Shown piece after piece: positions 33,937 through 51,586 of a DNA stretch of 56,403 nucleotides. Origin of the DNA: Thermodesulfobacteriota bacterium (lineage in GTDB: Bacteria; Desulfobacterota; Thermodesulfobacteria; Thermodesulfobacteriales; Thermodesulfobacteriaceae); assembly GCA_030550555.1 (NCBI GenBank), contig JAUQPD010000027.1:1-56403 (forward strand), in the 5' to 3' direction. The notes under the pieces are model-generated. The model was not told where the DNA came from, did not search any database, and saw only the letters and a list, made by a program, of their open reading frames with translations. The stretch's first letter is position 1; each line of letters starts with the position of its first letter. Made by a program: the position numbers and the translations under genes.

Positions 33937-36900
33937 TTATGAACTCTTAAAATCTATCTTTATAATTTTAGATACTCCTTTTTCTTCCATTGTTACTCCA
34001 ATTATGTTATCCACTTCCTTAATTACATGTGGATTATGACTTATTAATATTATTTGAGATTTTTCTTTAATTTTCGATAGGAGTTTTATGAATTTTTGTG
34101 AATTCTTTTCGTCTAAAGGTGCATCTATTTCATCTAAAATGCAGAATGGACCTGGCTTTGTTAGGTAAAAGGCGAGTAGTAAGCCAATCACACATAATGC
34201 CTTTTCTCCTCCTGAGAGCATGTAGATATTTCTGATATTTTTATAGGGAACTCTGATTGTTAGATCCAAACCAGAATTTAAAGGATCATCTCCAGTAAAA
34301 GATAGATGAGCCTGAGAATTCTCAAAGAGAATTGGAAATATTTCTATTAGATTTTTATTAACTATATCTAAACATTTAAGCATTCTATCCCTCGCTTCGG
34401 CTTCTAAATCTGATAAAATATGTTTTAACTCAAGAAGAGATTTTTCTATATCAATTTTTTGAGAGTTTAATTCTTCATATCTAACTTTTATTTTTTCAAA
34501 TTCCTTTATACTTGCTAAATTAACATCATTGAAGTTTTTGAGCTGATTTTCTAATTCCTCTAATTTTTTTTCTAAAGTGTTTACATCCTCTGAAGTATCT
34601 ATATCATTATCGAGTGAATTTTTATTCGATAATTGATTGAATTCTTTTTGTAAGTTTTGTAATGTCAAGTTAATTTCAGTAAGATCTATTTCAGTATTAT
34701 GAATTAATTTTTCTAAGTTTCTTAGCTCTCTTTCTTTGCTTTTTTTATCAAATGAAACTTTTTTAATTTTTTCATTTAGATTGTTTATTTCTGACTCTAT
34801 TTTAAGTATGTCATTTTTCAAACCATTTTGTTTTTCTTTAAGTTCATTGAGCTCCTTTTTTTTCTTTTCTAATTTTTCAGTTAAATACCTTTCTTCACTT
34901 TCCAATTTATTATTATTTATTATTACTTCTTGAAGAAAGTTTTCAATTTTTAAAATTTCCTTCTCAATTTCGGTCTTTTTCTTGTTTAGATATTGCAAAT
35001 CATTTTCTTTAAGAAGGAGTTCTCTTTCTAATTTATTTATTTCATCAAGTATCTGCTTTCTTTCTTTTTCCAATTTTGCTAAATTCTCTTTAAGATATTG
35101 AAATTCTTTATTGAGTATTTTGTGTTTATCACTTATGTTGGCTAATTCTGATTCAATTTTACTAATCTCCCTTTGAATTATCTCCCTATTTCTTTGAAGA
35201 CTATCCAACTTTTTAATCTCGTCATTTTTATTTTTTTCTAGGAATTCTTTTTTTTGTCCAAGTATCAATAAATTCTTTGTTATTTGTTCTTTTTTCTCAT
35301 TTTTTTCCTTTATACTTAATTCTAATTCTTTTACTTTTTCTTCTATCTCTCTTAGTTCTTTAGTTTTATTTTCATATGATACTTCAATTTCTTTTAGGAA
35401 TTCTATTTGATAATTTTTCTGTTTTTCTATCTCCTGCAATTCTTTTTGTAGAGAAAAGAAACCTTTATTTTCTTCGTTTATTTTTACTATGAATTTATTA
35501 TAGGCTACCAAAAAACTATCTTTTGTGATATAGATTATATCGTGATTAAAATTAAAGTTTAAAAATAATTCTTTTAAAGTTTTTTCAGAATGTTCAATAT
35601 TTAATATAAGTTTATCTAAATTATTTTTTAAAGTAAATACTTCTAGATTATATTCTTCTGTAAGATTGTAGACCTCTTGTATATCTTCTATGATAACAGC
35701 ATTTATGTATTCTCTATAAAAAGTTTCATAGTATTTTAAATCATTAATAAACTTTAGCAAATAATTTCCTAAAATCTTACCTTGTAATTCTATTGGTAAA
35801 TTTTTCTTAAAACTACTTAAAATCTTTCTAATTAGCTTTTCCCTTTCTTTTAATGAATACAATATATTTTTTAATTCATTTTTTTTATCTTTTAAGTTAT
35901 TTGTCACTAATTTTAATTTTTCAAATTCTTCTTTTATTTTTTTTAAAAATTCATTTTCATCTTCTAATTCCCTATCTATTTTTTCTAAAGTTTTTTTATG
36001 ATTCTCGAGATCAGTATTAATTTTATCTAGTAATCTTCTTTTTTCTTTCATTTCATATTCCATTTTCTTTATATCTTCGTCTATTTTTTTAATCTCTCTT
36101 AAAAGGCTTTCTCTTTTTTCTTTTAATTTTATAATTTCTCTATTAATGTCATCCATTTCTTTTTTCTTTGTCCCAAAGCTTTTCTGTAAATTGTTAAATT
36201 CAACCTCTTTTTTCTGCAAATTTTCTCTTATTTCTTTTAACCTTTTTAAAAGAGCTTCTTTATTCTTTTCAATCTCAATAATTTCTCTTTCAATCTTTTC
36301 TATTTCTTTTAATAAACTATTTTTTCTATTTTTTTCTATTTCATAAATACTTTTGTAGTTGTTAATCTTTTCATTTGTTAGCAATAATTCTTTCTCAATT
36401 TTGTTACTTTCTGTTAATATGTTTCTAATTTCATTTTCTACCTTATCTTTTTCTTTTCCTAGATCAATTTTTTTTCTTTCTAAAATTGAAATATTACTTA
36501 AAATTTTACTTTCCTCTATCTCAATGAATTGAATTTCGTCTTCAATTTTTTTGAATTTTAAGATAGCATTCTCTTTTTCTTCTTCTTTCTCTTTTTTTCT
36601 TTTTAAAAATTCTTTCTGTTTTATAAATAGATACTTTTTTTTCGTCTCAATAAATGAATCTCTTAAGTTTAAATATTTTTTTGCTACTTCTGCTTGCTCT
36701 TTAAGAGATAAATACTGTATTTCGACCTCTTTTAATATGTCACTTAAACGTTCGAGATTATGCTCTGTTGCTTTAATTTTTTTTATTATATCATCTTGTG
36801 TAAGTCTTAGTTTAGCAACACCTGCTAGCTCTTCAAGATAATATCTTCTTTCTACTGGATTTATTTCTAAAAATTTAGTAATTTCACCCTGATCAATAAT

Positions 36901-37320
36901 CCCATAGCTATTATAATTTATTCCTAAATTTAAAAATAAAAACTGTATGTCTTTTAATCTACACTGGCGATTATTTATTATAAATTCACTTTCCCCATCT
37001 TTATAAAATCTTCTTATAACAATTAGCTCATGATTTTCTTTGAATTTATCTAATATTGGTGGATCATGGTTTAAGACTATTTTAACTTCTGCAAAATCTA
37101 TTTTTCTATCAGTATTACCAGAATATATAAGGTCACTTAATTCCTTAACTCGCAACCTTTTAGGACTCTGTTCCCCAAGGACCCACTTTATGGCATCAAG
37201 GATATTACTTTTACCAGACCCGTTGGGACCAACAATAGCGGTAATCCCTTTTTCAAAGGGGATTACCGTTTTATAAGGAAAAGATTTGAATCCGTAAATC
37301 TCAAGTCTTTTGATATGCAA
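33937..37320 (-). CDS. smc: chromosome segregation ATPase SMC
   Basis: 1127-residue condensin subunit. Walker A GPNGSGKSNI at 31-40 in an N-terminal ATPase half, a coiled coil of about 300 residues, hinge around residues 490-610 (LQGKILGNYLLKFINDLKYY), the return coiled coil, then signature LSGGEKALCVIGLLLAFYL and Walker B FCILDEIDAPLD near 1065. The coiled coil is extremely Lys/Glu/Asn-rich, which explains the T-rich top strand. The start is TTG at 37320; no ScpA/ScpB genes are adjacent. Confidence 0.95.
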   Translation of the reverse strand: MHIKRLEIYGFKSFPYKTVIPFEKGITAIVGPNGSGKSNILDAIKWVLGEQSPKRLRVKELSDLIYSGNTDRKIDFAEVKIVLNHDPPILDKFKENHELIVIRRFYKDGESEFIINNRQCRLKDIQFLFLNLGINYNSYGIIDQGEITKFLEINPVERRYYLEELAGVAKLRLTQDDIIKKIKATEHNLERLSDILKEVEIQYLSLKEQAEVAKKYLNLRDSFIETKKKYLFIKQKEFLKRKKEKEEEKENAILKFKKIEDEIQFIEIEESKILSNISILERKKIDLGKEKDKVENEIRNILTESNKIEKELLLTNEKINNYKSIYEIEKNRKNSLLKEIEKIEREIIEIEKNKEALLKRLKEIRENLQKKEVEFNNLQKSFGTKKKEMDDINREIIKLKEKRESLLREIKKIDEDIKKMEYEMKEKRRLLDKINTDLENHKKTLEKIDRELEDENEFLKKIKEEFEKLKLVTNNLKDKKNELKNILYSLKEREKLIRKILSSFKKNLPIELQGKILGNYLLKFINDLKYYETFYREYINAVIIEDIQEVYNLTEEYNLEVFTLKNNLDKLILNIEHSEKTLKELFLNFNFNHDIIYITKDSFLVAYNKFIVKINEENKGFFSLQKELQEIEKQKNYQIEFLKEIEVSYENKTKELREIEEKVKELELSIKEKNEKKEQITKNLLILGQKKEFLEKNKNDEIKKLDSLQRNREIIQREISKIESELANISDKHKILNKEFQYLKENLAKLEKERKQILDEINKLERELLLKENDLQYLNKKKTEIEKEILKIENFLQEVIINNNKLESEERYLTEKLEKKKKELNELKEKQNGLKNDILKIESEINNLNEKIKKVSFDKKSKERELRNLEKLIHNTEIDLTEINLTLQNLQKEFNQLSNKNSLDNDIDTSEDVNTLEKKLEELENQLKNFNDVNLASIKEFEKIKVRYEELNSQKIDIEKSLLELKHILSDLEAEARDRMLKCLDIVNKNLIEIFPILFENSQAHLSFTGDDPLNSGLDLTIRVPYKNIRNIYMLSGGEKALCVIGLLLAFYLTKPGPFCILDEIDAPLDEKNSQKFIKLLSKIKEKSQIILISHNPHVIKEVDNIIGVTMEEKGVSKIIKIDFKSS

Positions 37321-37386: not shown

Positions 37387-38043
37387 TTAATTCTTTTCCT
37401 TAAGCTTCAAAAACTCCTTTATCTCATGGATTAGGACTGCCGGACTCTTGATTGGATAGGGAATACTGTCAAGTATTTCTTCTATGGGAATTCCCTTGAT
37501 TGTGAGGTCCTTAAGTCTTTCTTTTAGTTCAGTTGAATTAGTTATAGGATATTTGATACCTTTTGAGCGTTTGAGTAAAGAATACGCCCAGGGGACATCA
37601 AGTGCTCTCACAAGATCTGTGGCAACAAGACTGCAGTAGTAAATGAGCGTCTGGGCCTCATGTCCCTCCTTTATTTCTTTATAGGCAAGTTTGGCAATTC
37701 CTCCGGCAGTATGCACCTTGAGCTCTCGTGTTTCTTCGTGGATAAGTTCTTCTAGTGCCTTGATCTTTTGAAGAGCAAGTTGAGGATCTGCACGGAGAAT
37801 ATTTCTCACAGTATTTTTAGTGAGGCCGACCTTTTGAGCAATCTCTTCGTCGGTTTTCATATATTCTTCTTTTAAGACAACTGCATAGCTTGCTCTCGCA
37901 AGTGAAGGAAGCCATGTCAGTGTTCGATATTCAGTAAGTTTGCTTAGACCACCTAGTAATTCAATTGCCTTAAAGAAAACTCTGGTCACAAGGTGTTCTA
38001 CTTCTGCCTCACTCATAACTGGTCCAGTGATACTGATAACCAT
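37387..38043 (-). CDS. near-KaiC regulatory-domain protein
   Basis: About 218 residues. The middle part contains a helix-turn-helix-like segment (TDEEIAQKVGLTKNTVRNIL) followed by helical stretches (IHEETRELKVHTAGGIAKLA). This matches my recollection of the 'near_KaiC_dom' family, found beside thermophile KaiC-like ATPases, and the neighbour is indeed such an ATPase. Role presumed regulatory, possibly DNA binding. ATG at 38043 is preferred over GTG at 38052 because AGGAGGTGA lies just upstream. Starts 33 bp after the KaiC-like gene. Confidence 0.75.
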   Translation of the reverse strand: MVISITGPVMSEAEVEHLVTRVFFKAIELLGGLSKLTEYRTLTWLPSLARASYAVVLKEEYMKTDEEIAQKVGLTKNTVRNILRADPQLALQKIKALEELIHEETRELKVHTAGGIAKLAYKEIKEGHEAQTLIYYCSLVATDLVRALDVPWAYSLLKRSKGIKYPITNSTELKERLKDLTIKGIPIEEILDSIPYPIKSPAVLIHEIKEFLKLKEKN

Positions 38044-38076
38044 AACTCTCACCTCCTTTTATCTACTAGTTTTTTG

Positions 38077-38991
38077 TCATTTAGCTATCTGAAAGATGGG
38101 TTCTCTTATTACTACAAGGCCTGTCTCAGTTATTTCAAGAAAATGAGTTTTTGTATCATGTCCGCAGAGTCTACAGCCATCAATTCTAAAAAGTCGCACG
38201 ATGTCGCCGATTGGTCTATTATATAGTTTAGCTTTAAAGGCTGAGTCTATGAGTTCTTTGGCAAGGACCATTGTTCCATCTACGATGTGTCCTACCGCAT
38301 AGCCCCCTGCAGCTTCTGCGGTAAGCTCTTCGTGTCCGCTTCGCTTTTGAGACACAAAAAGGGCAGTTTGAAACCACTTTTTCATAAAATTGAAAAGTCT
38401 TCTGACAACAGCTCTTGCAAGCATCTCTCGTGTCTCAAAAAGACCTGTAATAGAGTCAATAATTGTAAATTTGATTTTGTATTGTTGAATAGCATAACTC
38501 AATGTGGCAAGAAGATCAGGTATATTTTCGCGGAGTCTACTTGAACTTGCGGCATCTATCAGAATGATATTGTCTTCAAAGCTCGAAAAGTCCAATCCCA
38601 TAGCAGAAGCTCTGAGCTTTAGAGAGAGGGCTACAAAATTGGCAGGTGCCTCGACGGTGATAAAGGCAACCCTCTCCCCAAGGCTTGCCTGCTTTACAGC
38701 AAATTGTTCAACCAAAAGCGATTTTCCCGTATCCGAAACACCAGTAATATTAAATACCGAGTAGGCAGGTATTCCATTCAACTGTTTCTTGACAAGCTTT
38801 CCATCTTCACTTGTCGTTATATAGAAAAGTTGATCAAGTCCCTCGATACCTGTGGGGACTCCATAGAGTTTTGGAGCCTTGGCAACAGCTTCACTGCCCT
38901 TAAAAATTGCCTTAAGATCTGGCTCTCCATAACTAGAGATCTTTTCAGCCTCCTCTGCTATTCCTGAGTCCTTCCTAAAGCCTCTATTCAT
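38077..38991 (-). CDS. KaiC-like RecA-fold ATPase, single domain
   Basis: 304 residues with one KaiC/RecA domain: GVPTGIEGLDQLF near 44, Walker A GVSDTGKS at 84-91, VAFITVEAPANF (catalytic Glu region) near 120, Walker B-like FTIIDSITGLFETREM near 187. The C-terminal part has a CRLCGH zinc-knuckle-like motif near residue 275. It lacks the second KaiC domain, so it is not a clock KaiC. It resembles the thermophile KaiC-domain families (AF_0795-like) paired with near-KaiC proteins. Target unknown; likely signalling. Confidence 0.8.
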   Translation of the reverse strand: MNRGFRKDSGIAEEAEKISSYGEPDLKAIFKGSEAVAKAPKLYGVPTGIEGLDQLFYITTSEDGKLVKKQLNGIPAYSVFNITGVSDTGKSLLVEQFAVKQASLGERVAFITVEAPANFVALSLKLRASAMGLDFSSFEDNIILIDAASSSRLRENIPDLLATLSYAIQQYKIKFTIIDSITGLFETREMLARAVVRRLFNFMKKWFQTALFVSQKRSGHEELTAEAAGGYAVGHIVDGTMVLAKELIDSAFKAKLYNRPIGDIVRLFRIDGCRLCGHDTKTHFLEITETGLVVIREPIFQIAK

Positions 38992-39178
38992 CTCATTTTT
39001 CCCCCAAGATTTTTATTATGCTATAGTTGAATAATAATAAAGATTTATTTAGAGTAAAGGGGAAATCCCATTCTTAATGGCACCTAAAATTTGTAAATTT
39101 ATTGTTAATTTATATCCTACATTACTTGTTAAAAGACTGAAAGATGATATCATTGGTAGATGGAGATAGGAGGATAGG

Positions 39179-47789: not shown

Positions 47790-49181
47790 TTAGGCATAAC
47801 CCCATCTTTTGAGTTTATCCCTAAGAGTTTTTCTGTCAATACCCAATAGTTTCGCGGTCAGACTGCGGTTCCATTTGAGTTGGTCAAGGACTTTGAGAAT
47901 GTATCTTTTTTCAATCTCCTCAAGGGGTAGAATAGTTCCATCAGTGTTTAGCTCTGGAAGGTCTCCTGACTCGAGCTGTGGAGTCTCTTCCTTTGAATTA
48001 GGTCTTTCAAATCCTGCAAAAAGGAGATCCTTCTCAGTGATTTCATCACGTTTGCTAAATATCACCAATCTTTCAATTAGGTGCTTGAGCTCTCTAACAT
48101 TACCAGGCCAGTCGTAGTGGAAAAAGATATCCATTACTTCTGGTGATATCTTTTTGGGAGGTTTCTGATGCTTTTCCTGGTAATATTTCAGAAAATAGTC
48201 AACAAGAAGTGGTATATCCTCTTTTCTTTCTCTAAGAGGGGGAAGGTGGAGATTAACTACATTGAGCCTATAATATAAGTCTTCCCTGAAATTTCCTTTT
48301 TTGACCTCTTCTTTTAGATTCTTATTTGTGGCAGTAATTATTCTAACTTTTGCCTTAATAATTTTGTGGCTTCCTACAGGAGAGAATTCCTTTTCTTCCA
48401 CCACCTTTAGAAGCTTTGCCTGGAGTTCAAGGGAGATGTTTCCAATTTCATCAAGAAAGAGGCATCCATTTTGGGCAAGTTCAATCTTACCAATCTTTGA
48501 GGTATGAGCTCCAGTAAAGGCACCTTTTACATGGCCGAAAAGTTCGCTTTCAAAGAGGGTAGGAACAATACAGCTACAGTCTACGCAGACGAAGGGACCA
48601 GGGTAGAGTCTGTCAAACTCGTGAATTTTTCTTGCAAGAAGCCCCTTTCCAGTACCAGACTCTCCAGTAATGAGAATTGTCGAGTCTGTTTGGGCTAAGA
48701 GTTTAGCCTTTTCAAGAAGATCCTTTATGGCTTTGCTCTTTCCAATAAAAGGGGTCTTACCCTCTCTCTCACGCAGATTCATTTTGAGATATAAGTTTTC
48801 AAGGGCAAGTCTTTTGTGCTCAAGAGCTTTCTCTAAGGCAAGTTTTGCCTCATATATGGAGAAAGGCTTCTCTAAGAAATCAAAGGCACCTGCTTTTATA
48901 GCAGAAACCGCAGTCTCTATATTTCCATAGGCAGAAATAACTATGACCTGTGTATCAAGGGAATTTTCCATGATCTCCTTTAGTAGCTCGAGCCCATTTG
49001 CATCTGGTAATTTCAAGTCAAGAAAACAGAGGTCATACTCATATTTGGAGAGATACTCCCTTGCGCTTTTTCCATCCTCAGCAAGGTCTACCTCATACCC
49101 TTCTTTTGTAAACACCTGATAGAGACTATCTCTAATAGCAGGTTCATCATCAACGATGAGGAGCTTTCCTTTAAAAGGCAT
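47790..49181 (-). CDS. sigma-54-dependent response regulator (NtrC family)
   Basis: 463 residues. Receiver domain (LLIVDDEPAIRDSLYQ; phosphoacceptor Asp in CFLDLKLPDANG near 54; KPF near 104). AAA+ domain with Walker A GESGTGKG near 172, GAFTGA near 218 (contact with sigma-54), Walker B CLFLDEIGN, and arginine-rich second half. C-terminal Fis-type helix-turn-helix (RSLTAKLLGIDRKTLRDKLK). Activates sigma-54 promoters on phosphorylation. Overlaps the kinase gene by 11 bp. Targets unknown. Confidence 0.94.
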   Translation of the reverse strand: MPFKGKLLIVDDEPAIRDSLYQVFTKEGYEVDLAEDGKSAREYLSKYEYDLCFLDLKLPDANGLELLKEIMENSLDTQVIVISAYGNIETAVSAIKAGAFDFLEKPFSIYEAKLALEKALEHKRLALENLYLKMNLREREGKTPFIGKSKAIKDLLEKAKLLAQTDSTILITGESGTGKGLLARKIHEFDRLYPGPFVCVDCSCIVPTLFESELFGHVKGAFTGAHTSKIGKIELAQNGCLFLDEIGNISLELQAKLLKVVEEKEFSPVGSHKIIKAKVRIITATNKNLKEEVKKGNFREDLYYRLNVVNLHLPPLRERKEDIPLLVDYFLKYYQEKHQKPPKKISPEVMDIFFHYDWPGNVRELKHLIERLVIFSKRDEITEKDLLFAGFERPNSKEETPQLESGDLPELNTDGTILPLEEIEKRYILKVLDQLKWNRSLTAKLLGIDRKTLRDKLKRWGYA

Positions 49182-50178
49182 CTTCTCTCAAAGCCTCCCT
49201 TGTTGCTAAAGGAAATACTATCTCAAAGGATGCCCCCTTTTCAGGGAGATTTTCTACTCTAATATATCCTCCATGTCTTTTAATTATACTGTGACATATA
49301 GATAAACCAAGACCTGTGCCCTTTCCAGAACTTTTGGTGGTAAAGAAGGGGTCAAAAATAAAGGGCATAATTTCAGGAGGAATGCCAGGTCCCGAGTCAG
49401 TAACCCTGATAATAATACGATCCTCCCTGCCCTTTGTTTCAACCCAGATTGTTCCCTCACCTTTCATAGCTTCTACCGCATTGGTAAAAAGATTTAAAAA
49501 AACCTGCTCCATCTGAGTTGGATTAGCATAAAATGGTGGCAACTCTGGGTCCAAATTAAAAACAAATTTAACCTTACGGAAGACCTGATAGTCAGAAATG
49601 AGATTATAGATATTTTGAATTACCTGGTTTAAATTAATCCACTCCTTTTTGCCTCGCTCAGGCTTTCCAAAATCAAGGAGGGCTTTGGAAATAATCCTAC
49701 ATCTTGTGGTTAGAGCTATTATCTTGTCCACGTAGTCCTGAAGTCTTGAATTTGAGCCAAGCTCTTCCTTAAGCATATTTGCATAGAGAAGGATGCCTCC
49801 AAGAGGATTATTCAATTCATGAGAGATTTCTCCTGCAAGTTTGCCAAGACTTGCAAGACGCTCAGTGTGATACCAGTGTGGAAATCTTAACCAAAAACTC
49901 TCCTCAATTAATACATGAATTTTTCTCTTCTTTCCAAGAGGTAAACAAAGGTGATAATAGGGTTTGCCAAGATAGGTAAAATATTCTAGTCCAGGACTAT
50001 CAAAGTAGGGTCCAAAGAGGCTCTCAAGATAGATCTCCCCTTCAAGAGATGAAAACTGGGGAAAGGCCTCCTTGAAGGCCCTGTTTACCCAAAGGACCTT
50101 ATGCCCTCTCTTTGTAATCTTTGAAAGAATAAATGGTAATCCAATACTTTCCCACTCTTCACATGCCTTACCTGCCAT
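49171..50178 (-). CDS. soluble sensor histidine kinase
   Basis: About 335 residues without membrane segments, so a cytoplasmic sensor. The N-terminal ~100 residues look PAS-like (HKVLWVNRAFKEAFPQFSSL). HisKA box LGKLAGEISHELNNPLGGIL carries the phosphorylated His; HATPase motifs LFTNAVEAMKGEG, VTDSGPGIPPEIM, DPFFTTKSSGKGTGLGLSIC follow. ATG at 50178 has GGGAGGA upstream and overlaps mpl by 11 bp, so mpl, kinase and regulator are probably co-transcribed. Confidence 0.92.
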   Translation of the reverse strand: MAGKACEEWESIGLPFILSKITKRGHKVLWVNRAFKEAFPQFSSLEGEIYLESLFGPYFDSPGLEYFTYLGKPYYHLCLPLGKKRKIHVLIEESFWLRFPHWYHTERLASLGKLAGEISHELNNPLGGILLYANMLKEELGSNSRLQDYVDKIIALTTRCRIISKALLDFGKPERGKKEWINLNQVIQNIYNLISDYQVFRKVKFVFNLDPELPPFYANPTQMEQVFLNLFTNAVEAMKGEGTIWVETKGREDRIIIRVTDSGPGIPPEIMPFIFDPFFTTKSSGKGTGLGLSICHSIIKRHGGYIRVENLPEKGASFEIVFPLATREALREDAF

Positions 50179-51586
50179 AAATCCTCCCAAGAAGCTCCTT
50201 AAGCTTAGAAATCTCTCTCTCCATATAGGCACTTGACATCAAAACAAGCAGTTGTCTCCTCTCAGGATAAATGTCAACAGTAAAGTCTTCCCTTGCACTT
50301 ATGAAACCAACCTTTTTTCCTCTCTCAATAAGCCTTTTAGTAACATAGCCCAAGTCAATCCGTTCAGTATCAGGAATTAACTCAAGTCCCGGAGGTTCTT
50401 TGAGATAAATTTCATCCGCAAGACTTAGTGACTCAACGTAGTCCTCTTGAAAGACCTTTCTTCTGCTGGAATTTGTTCTCGGCTCAAAAATCAAAGTAGT
50501 AATCTCTGGTTTAAAGGCATCCATAAGAGAGGAGAGGGTTAGTTTAACAGCAGAAGGATGATGGGCAAAATCATCAATAAGAAGATGCCTCCTTCCACAA
50601 AAAAGAACTTCTTGCCTCCTCTTCACCCCGGGAAAGGTCTCAATCACCCTTAAAAGCTCTTCTCTCTTAAATCCAAGAGCTTCAAGTAAAAGAAGCACAG
50701 AAATAACATTAAGCGAATTATAAAAACCTGGAAGTCTATGCCTAACAACAAATTGGTCTCCCTTAGAGTCATGCACTATGGCTTCAGTTATAAAACCCTC
50801 TCCATTAAATAATGTGTGTGAACGCACTAAGCGATAGTCTCCGCTCTGAGTCCCATAGGTTTTCAGTATGTCAATATTGTGCTTAATTTTTTCAATAAGG
50901 TTTGTGAGATTTGGGTCATCGCCATGATAGACAAGGACCCCTTTTTGGCTGACTGATTGCACTAATTTTTCAAAAACTTCAGTATAGGCTTCAAGACTCG
51001 AAAAAACATCAGCATGGTCATACTCAAGGCTTGTCAAGATTAATCCAAAAGGGTAATAGTGAAAAAATTTAGGCACCGGATCAAAATATGCAGATGGATA
51101 TTCATCACCCTCAAGAACGACATATCTTCCCTTGCCAAAACGGAAGTTTCTTCCAGTCTCCCTGATGAGCCCACCAATTACAAAAGTTGGATCCTGAGAG
51201 AGACGAAACAAAGACCAGGCAAGCAAGGCGGATGTGGTTGTTTTCCCATGAGTTCCAGCAACAACGAGGCTAACTTTGTCTTTCAAGATAAAACGCTTAA
51301 TAAATTGGGGAAAGGAGAGGACCTCTTTTCCAAGGGCCCTTGCTCGAGCAACTTCATCATTATCTCGCTTTACTGCATTGCCAACAACGACATACTGCGG
51401 ATCAATTAGGTCTATGTTGCTTTCTTGACTTGCTAAGACCCTTATCCCCAATTCATTTAGAATGTCTTTTGCAGGAGAGTATATGGGATTGCTTTCAGAG
51501 CCACTTACCTCAAAGCCCATCTCTTTTGCAAGCCCTGCAACCGCAGACATGGCAATACCACCAATACCAATAAAATGAACTCTCAT
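50168..51586 (-). CDS. mpl: UDP-N-acetylmuramate:tripeptide ligase (Mpl), murein recycling
   Basis: Mur-ligase family enzyme joining recycled L-Ala-gamma-D-Glu-meso-DAP to UDP-MurNAc. About 472 residues: Rossmann start HFIGIGGIAMSAVAGLAKEM, ATP loop VAGTHGKTTTSALLAW near 108, GDEYPSAYFDPVPKFFHYYP, and LEYDHADVF, the last two being typical of Mpl over MurC. ATG at 51586 has GAGGAGG 6 bp upstream and overlaps the hemW stop as ATGA. MurC remains a weaker alternative. Confidence 0.88.
   Translation of the reverse strand: MRVHFIGIGGIAMSAVAGLAKEMGFEVSGSESNPIYSPAKDILNELGIRVLASQESNIDLIDPQYVVVGNAVKRDNDEVARARALGKEVLSFPQFIKRFILKDKVSLVVAGTHGKTTTSALLAWSLFRLSQDPTFVIGGLIRETGRNFRFGKGRYVVLEGDEYPSAYFDPVPKFFHYYPFGLILTSLEYDHADVFSSLEAYTEVFEKLVQSVSQKGVLVYHGDDPNLTNLIEKIKHNIDILKTYGTQSGDYRLVRSHTLFNGEGFITEAIVHDSKGDQFVVRHRLPGFYNSLNVISVLLLLEALGFKREELLRVIETFPGVKRRQEVLFCGRRHLLIDDFAHHPSAVKLTLSSLMDAFKPEITTLIFEPRTNSSRRKVFQEDYVESLSLADEIYLKEPPGLELIPDTERIDLGYVTKRLIERGKKVGFISAREDFTVDIYPERRQLLVLMSSAYMEREISKLKELLGRIYGR

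Follow-up and report, generated by a model that had tools for sequence, protein, structure and literature searches.

A KaiC-type ATPase gene and its near_KaiC partner mostly track the reverse gyrase gene in several bacterial phyla

The pair formed by a single-domain KaiC-type ATPase gene (kaiC) and its near_KaiC partner mostly tracks the reverse gyrase gene (rgy) across several bacterial phyla, and it is this association that is new. The pair itself had already been catalogued as TIGR03878/TIGR03879, its function being undescribed. The "undescribed regulatory system" of the original prediction is therefore undescribed in function and not as a family, because curated models exist. Reverse gyrase is the best-known marker of hyperthermophiles and, to our knowledge, its control and its working partners are poorly known. 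A conserved pair of an ATPase and a putative DNA-binding protein, which accompanies rgy in different phyla and in some of them shares a gene cluster with it, is a concrete candidate for such a partner, and it suggests what might be the function of two curated families that so far carry just the labels "hypothetical equivalog" and "probable regulatory domain". The open literature searched contained no report of a link between the pair and rgy and no relevant paper on thermo_KaiC_2, near_KaiC, or COG1318; prior notice of the link is possible, e.g., in the survey of archaeal KaiC ATPases published in mBio in 2017.

The kaiC and near_KaiC genes and their products

The pair was studied in a window of 56,403 nucleotides, which is the whole stretch of DNA that was analysed, from a 1.7-Mb genome of the Thermodesulfobacteriaceae whose named relatives are Thermodesulfobacterium and Caldimicrobium. 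Genes for a KaiC-like ATPase and a partner had been proposed; both open reading frames are real and lie on the minus strand. The features of the locus are as follows.

33937..37320, minus strand: smc (SMC_N; Pfam SMC_N, 145 bits), 66 nt downstream of near_KaiC
37387..38043, minus strand: near_KaiC partner, likely ATG start, ~218 aa, TIGR03879 match
38044..38076, minus strand: kaiC/near_KaiC junction, ~33 nt after the kaiC stop, with an AGGAGG ribosome site
38077..38991, minus strand: kaiC, thermo_KaiC_2 single-domain KaiC/RecA-type ATPase, 304 aa, ATG start
38992..39178, minus strand: divergent intergenic region upstream of kaiC, with weak sigma-70-like promoters, e.g., TTTACT-16-TATTAT

The GTG that gives the longest form of near_KaiC (37387-38052) and the AGGAGGTGA ribosome site overlap. 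The likelier start is the in-frame ATG at 38043-38041, because it lies at a usual distance behind the AGGAGG and is the start used by most homologues. A terminator scan of the junction at 38044..38076 detected none, and a short junction of ~5-80 nt recurs in most linked loci. Upstream of kaiC (38992..39178), the number of matches in the promoter consensus scan was close to that in shuffles. The immediate neighbours of the pair in the window are smc and resB, and the order near_KaiC then smc on the same strand was also found in six loci of Thermodesulfobacteriaceae, smc being a family-specific neighbour. The statement that no kinase is nearby thus holds for the immediate neighbours, but genes for a histidine kinase (49171-50232) and an NtrC-type sigma-54 response regulator (47790-49181) are located 9-11 kb from the pair in the same window. 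No Rfam match to a structured RNA was obtained at the locus, and a role in anti-phage defence was rejected, since PADLOC matches were at chance level only.

In the NCBIfam profile search, the kaiC product matched TIGR03878 (thermo_KaiC_2) over its full length with 455.8 bits (cut-off 232.2), and it scored 180.8 bits with the Pfam KaiC model PF06745. TIGR03878, a model without described function from which the window kaiC does not differ, is also matched over the full length and well above the cut-off by all 31 aligned kaiC homologues. An alignment showed conservation of the Walker A motif GVSDTGKS (residues ~84-91), of E114, and of the Walker B motif FTIIDS (D179-S180). The C-terminal CxxC (C273-C276) noted originally is present in the window, but its second Cys is not conserved: C273 is invariant, whereas position 276 is occupied by Ser or Ala in the majority of Aquificota and Campylobacterota, and a conserved metal or redox motif was therefore ruled out.

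The nearest fold to the AlphaFold model of the kaiC product, which is of low confidence in parts of the nucleotide site, is that of PH0284 from Pyrococcus horikoshii (PDB 2dr3, E=2e-10), a RecA-superfamily ATPase that is likewise a single-domain KaiC-type protein (TM 0.69 on the target); the model also matches KaiC. However, PH0284 has 22% identity to the kaiC product and represents a distinct subfamily, because TIGR03877 (thermo_KaiC_1), the model of the PH0284 family, gives 55 bits for kaiC versus a cut-off of 307. Cyanobacterial KaiC has the RecA/KaiC fold and the P-loop in common with the window kaiC, and this fold could be taken to indicate a circadian-type or phospho-timer system. Such a system is extremely improbable here, as cyanobacterial KaiC has two tandem domains whereas the window kaiC has one, and the circ_KaiC profile gave 31 bits versus a cut-off of 546; a circadian clock is rejected on the profile scores. 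Furthermore, kaiA and kaiB were found neither among the window genes scanned nor as conserved neighbours of the pair loci.

An alternative that deserves more weight, unlikely as we consider it, is that the pair serves DNA maintenance, in which a RecA-fold ATPase (compare the archaeal RadA-paralogue group) would be loaded by a helix-turn-helix (HTH) adaptor that binds DNA and, together with reverse gyrase, act on DNA that is nicked, melted, or over-wound. This would be consistent with the remote similarity of the kaiC product to RadA/RadB and to Sso2452 (PDB 2w0m), an archaeal RadA paralogue which has a single-domain RecA/KaiC fold like kaiC (E=3e-6 by sequence). However, kaiC scores far higher on thermo_KaiC_2 than on any recombinase model, with 18.9 bits, below threshold, for both the curated RadA profile (cut-off 259) and the curated RadB profile (cut-off 172.4), and recombination genes are not among the conserved neighbours of the pair.

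The partner scored 123.5 bits with TIGR03879 (near_KaiC_dom) in the NCBIfam profile search (cut-off 65.1), and all 60 aligned near_KaiC homologues match this model. With both curated cut-offs passed, the profile check confirmed the two family assignments of the original prediction. The HTH of near_KaiC (residues ~68-86 in long-form numbering) is followed by a conserved HTAGGxAKLAY segment, and the C-terminal half is helical and less conserved, its last ~90 residues being excluded from the TIGR03879 model. The AlphaFold model is mostly helical, with a pLDDT of ~96 over the two HTH helices at residues 68-86, and the HTH-like segment seen earlier is thus supported by both the near_KaiC_dom match and a confident structure model. 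Scores with Pfam HTH models were just short of threshold, the PDB relatives detected by sequence were short HTH matches only, and the fold search gave nothing at E<0.001. Weak similarity was seen to the HTH domains of ParB/Noc and sigma region 4, to which the near_KaiC HTH is weakly closer than to any ligand-binding regulator. This would fit a role in DNA maintenance, but the similarities fall below thresholds, the fold E-values are not significant, and the CTPase domain of ParB is absent from near_KaiC. In the Thermocrinis-type genomes G068, G070, and G341-G345, a second, weaker near_KaiC_dom match (62-95 bits) was found in each, possibly a paralogous partner.

Distribution of the pair and of reverse gyrase

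The kaiC and near_KaiC genes are a conserved pair and co-occur even when they are unlinked. Among 49 Thermodesulfobacteriota genomes, both genes are present in 33 and absent from 14, kaiC occurs alone in two, and near_KaiC alone in none; in other genera of the window's order the two genes are unlinked, yet both are present. A further 80 loci were obtained from Thermodesulfobacteria, Aquificota, and thermophilic Campylobacterota and, for other phyla, from MAGs of vents or hot habitats. The kaiC gene lies directly upstream of near_KaiC in ~48 of these 80 loci, the two are also linked in the window, and they are not adjacent in Aquificaceae. The predicted pairing is therefore supported by conserved adjacency as well as by co-occurrence. 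The view that it is best known from archaea has to be revised, because the pair is not limited to archaea and occurs commonly among bacterial thermophiles (Aquificota, Thermodesulfobacteria, and thermophilic Campylobacterota), the archaeal sampling consisting of control genomes. On the Thermomicrobium roseum megaplasmid (L165, 11986-13265), the pair has a short near_KaiC of ~127 aa, the domain only, which overlaps kaiC by 4 bases and adjoins a gene for FAD-dependent thymidylate synthase; rgy was not found on this plasmid.

The association with rgy was observed in several phyla. Among 200 Campylobacterota genomes drawn evenly, near_KaiC was found in 10, kaiC in the same 10, and rgy in 12 that include all 10 (Fisher p=3e-15, phylogeny being ignored). 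The single pair carrier among 285 Omnitrophota genomes, which was the centre of that sample, is also the single rgy carrier. In Thermodesulfobacteriota (n=49), 32 genomes have both near_KaiC and rgy, one near_KaiC only, seven rgy only, and nine neither; the corresponding numbers in Aquificota (n=136) are 110, 6, 14, and 6 (p=0.0025). Many genomes in these tables are incomplete MAGs, and this is possibly why rgy is missing in 6 of the 116 Aquificota carriers of near_KaiC. In addition, rgy was detected at E below 1e-110 in 32 of the 40 genomes reached through pair loci. Both near_KaiC and rgy are present in the control genomes of Thermus composti, T. maritima, and M. jannaschii, and near_KaiC was above the cut-off in none of the 10 controls without rgy. 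In four Aquificota (G080, G084, G383, and G385), the rgy open frames are 1,400-1,690 residues long, and their profile match is interrupted near position 730, which suggests a large insertion, perhaps an intein.

The association may partly reflect shared thermophily. Taken to its end, this would make the two genes a general signalling or housekeeping pair of thermophiles that co-occurs with rgy through habitat and horizontal transfer (vents, hot springs), its clustering with rgy being incidental. Such co-occurrence would be expected for other thermophily genes too, and some genomes have rgy without the pair, among them G004 (99% complete), G127, and G138, the last of which we take to be Nautilia profundicola. 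It has been reported that rgy of N. profundicola is induced more than 100-fold by heat (PMC2628731). Therefore, the pair is not a universal inducer of rgy, nor is it needed for the heat induction of rgy in that organism. The pair was also not found beside the plasmid-borne rgy of Thermus thermophilus.

Gene order and linkage with rgy

Clustering of the genes that flank the pair loci identified rgy as the immediate neighbour in six Aquificota and five Campylobacterota loci. It is the neighbour common to two phyla in the greatest number; cluster 3, which was joined by single linkage, also spans two phyla with fewer loci, and no convincing cross-phylum conserved neighbour apart from rgy was found. 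In total, rgy adjoins the pair, either codirectional or divergent, in 5 of 10 carriers in Campylobacterota and in at least 12 of 116 in Aquificota, and in some members of both phyla kaiC, near_KaiC, and rgy are contiguous. For example, the end of near_KaiC and the beginning of rgy share 4 bases in Nitratiruptor-type loci of Campylobacterota, the stop and start codons abut in G112 and G156, and the kaiC-near_KaiC-rgy unit is present in G135, taken to be Nitratiruptor sp. SB155-2. In the window genome, rgy is unlinked to the pair (on G000:C28), and in most Aquificota carriers the pair lies away from rgy.

This distance in most carriers would suit a general thermophile pair, but that explanation appears decidedly unlikely when the linked loci are considered. 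Besides the position of rgy as the top neighbour shared by two phyla, its adjacency to the pair requires three changes on each of both trees and includes two distinct arrangements. Furthermore, in G061, which is grouped with Aquificota and in which rgy is divergent to the pair, rgy is sister to that of the window genome (100% SH-aLRT) and near_KaiC branches with Thermodesulfobacteria (90%). Because both branch with Thermodesulfobacteria, the pair and rgy of G061 seem to have been acquired together. The finding that the neighbours of the pair are DNA-topology genes (rgy and, in Thermodesulfobacteriaceae, smc) is also consistent with DNA maintenance.

In Persephonella-type loci, an intrinsic terminator is located between near_KaiC and rgy in seven of seven cases (L078, L082, L083, L091, L094, L191, and L192), ~20-30 nt before the rgy start, as a G+C-rich hairpin with a GCGGGCT stem and a T7-T8 tract. 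The best promoter-like site in these loci is found before kaiC (TTGACA-16-TATATT), and the position of the hairpin leaves scant room for a promoter of rgy itself. It is possible that this terminator attenuates rgy, whose expression would then be controlled by read-through from the pair. When the upstream regions of kaiC and rgy were compared by an 18-base shared-word test, which is crude and of low power, no common operator was found in 14 of 15 genomes, a result that speaks against near_KaiC as a transcription regulator of rgy and would agree with DNA maintenance; by eye, the rgy upstream regions have a resemblance to sigma-70-like promoters only.

Possible roles of the pair

Our tentative proposal, to which we give a little less than an even chance, is that the two genes form a thermophile module acting together with reverse gyrase, most likely as a DNA-binding heat-response switch gated by the ATPase. 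Several findings weigh against it: rgy is unlinked in the window genome and in most Aquificota carriers, kaiC and near_KaiC are themselves apart in Aquificaceae, rgy occurs without the pair in some genomes (including that taken to be N. profundicola) and on the T. thermophilus plasmid, the T. roseum megaplasmid has the pair but no rgy, and a common operator was not found. From its RecA fold and intact nucleotide motifs, the KaiC-type protein is predicted to form an ATP-dependent ring, which would control the near_KaiC protein. The latter would bind DNA via its predicted HTH, and the pair would thereby determine at what time or place reverse gyrase and heat-protective DNA functions come into use. 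To describe the pair as a "two-component switch of its own", as had been suggested, is too narrow, because it accompanies reverse gyrase. In a second form of the proposed module, which is a close second, the pair would act directly on heat-stressed DNA in an accessory role. A more specific possibility, which we hold with reserve and place appreciably short of an even chance, is that reverse gyrase has in the pair a dedicated partner or controller, in which a KaiC-type ring driven by ATP would, together with an HTH protein, couple the state of the cell or heat to positive supercoiling, in Persephonella via terminator read-through.

Between a regulator and DNA maintenance, the regulator is slightly favoured by the HTH, by the operon form, and by heat-shock induction of a possible archaeal counterpart. 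In Pyrococcus furiosus, it has been reported that PF1931, which has a KaiC domain, and PF1932, a predicted regulator, are induced by heat shock, have Phr motifs, and belong to the Phr regulon (PMC10746257), and these two consecutively numbered genes are a possible counterpart of the window pair.
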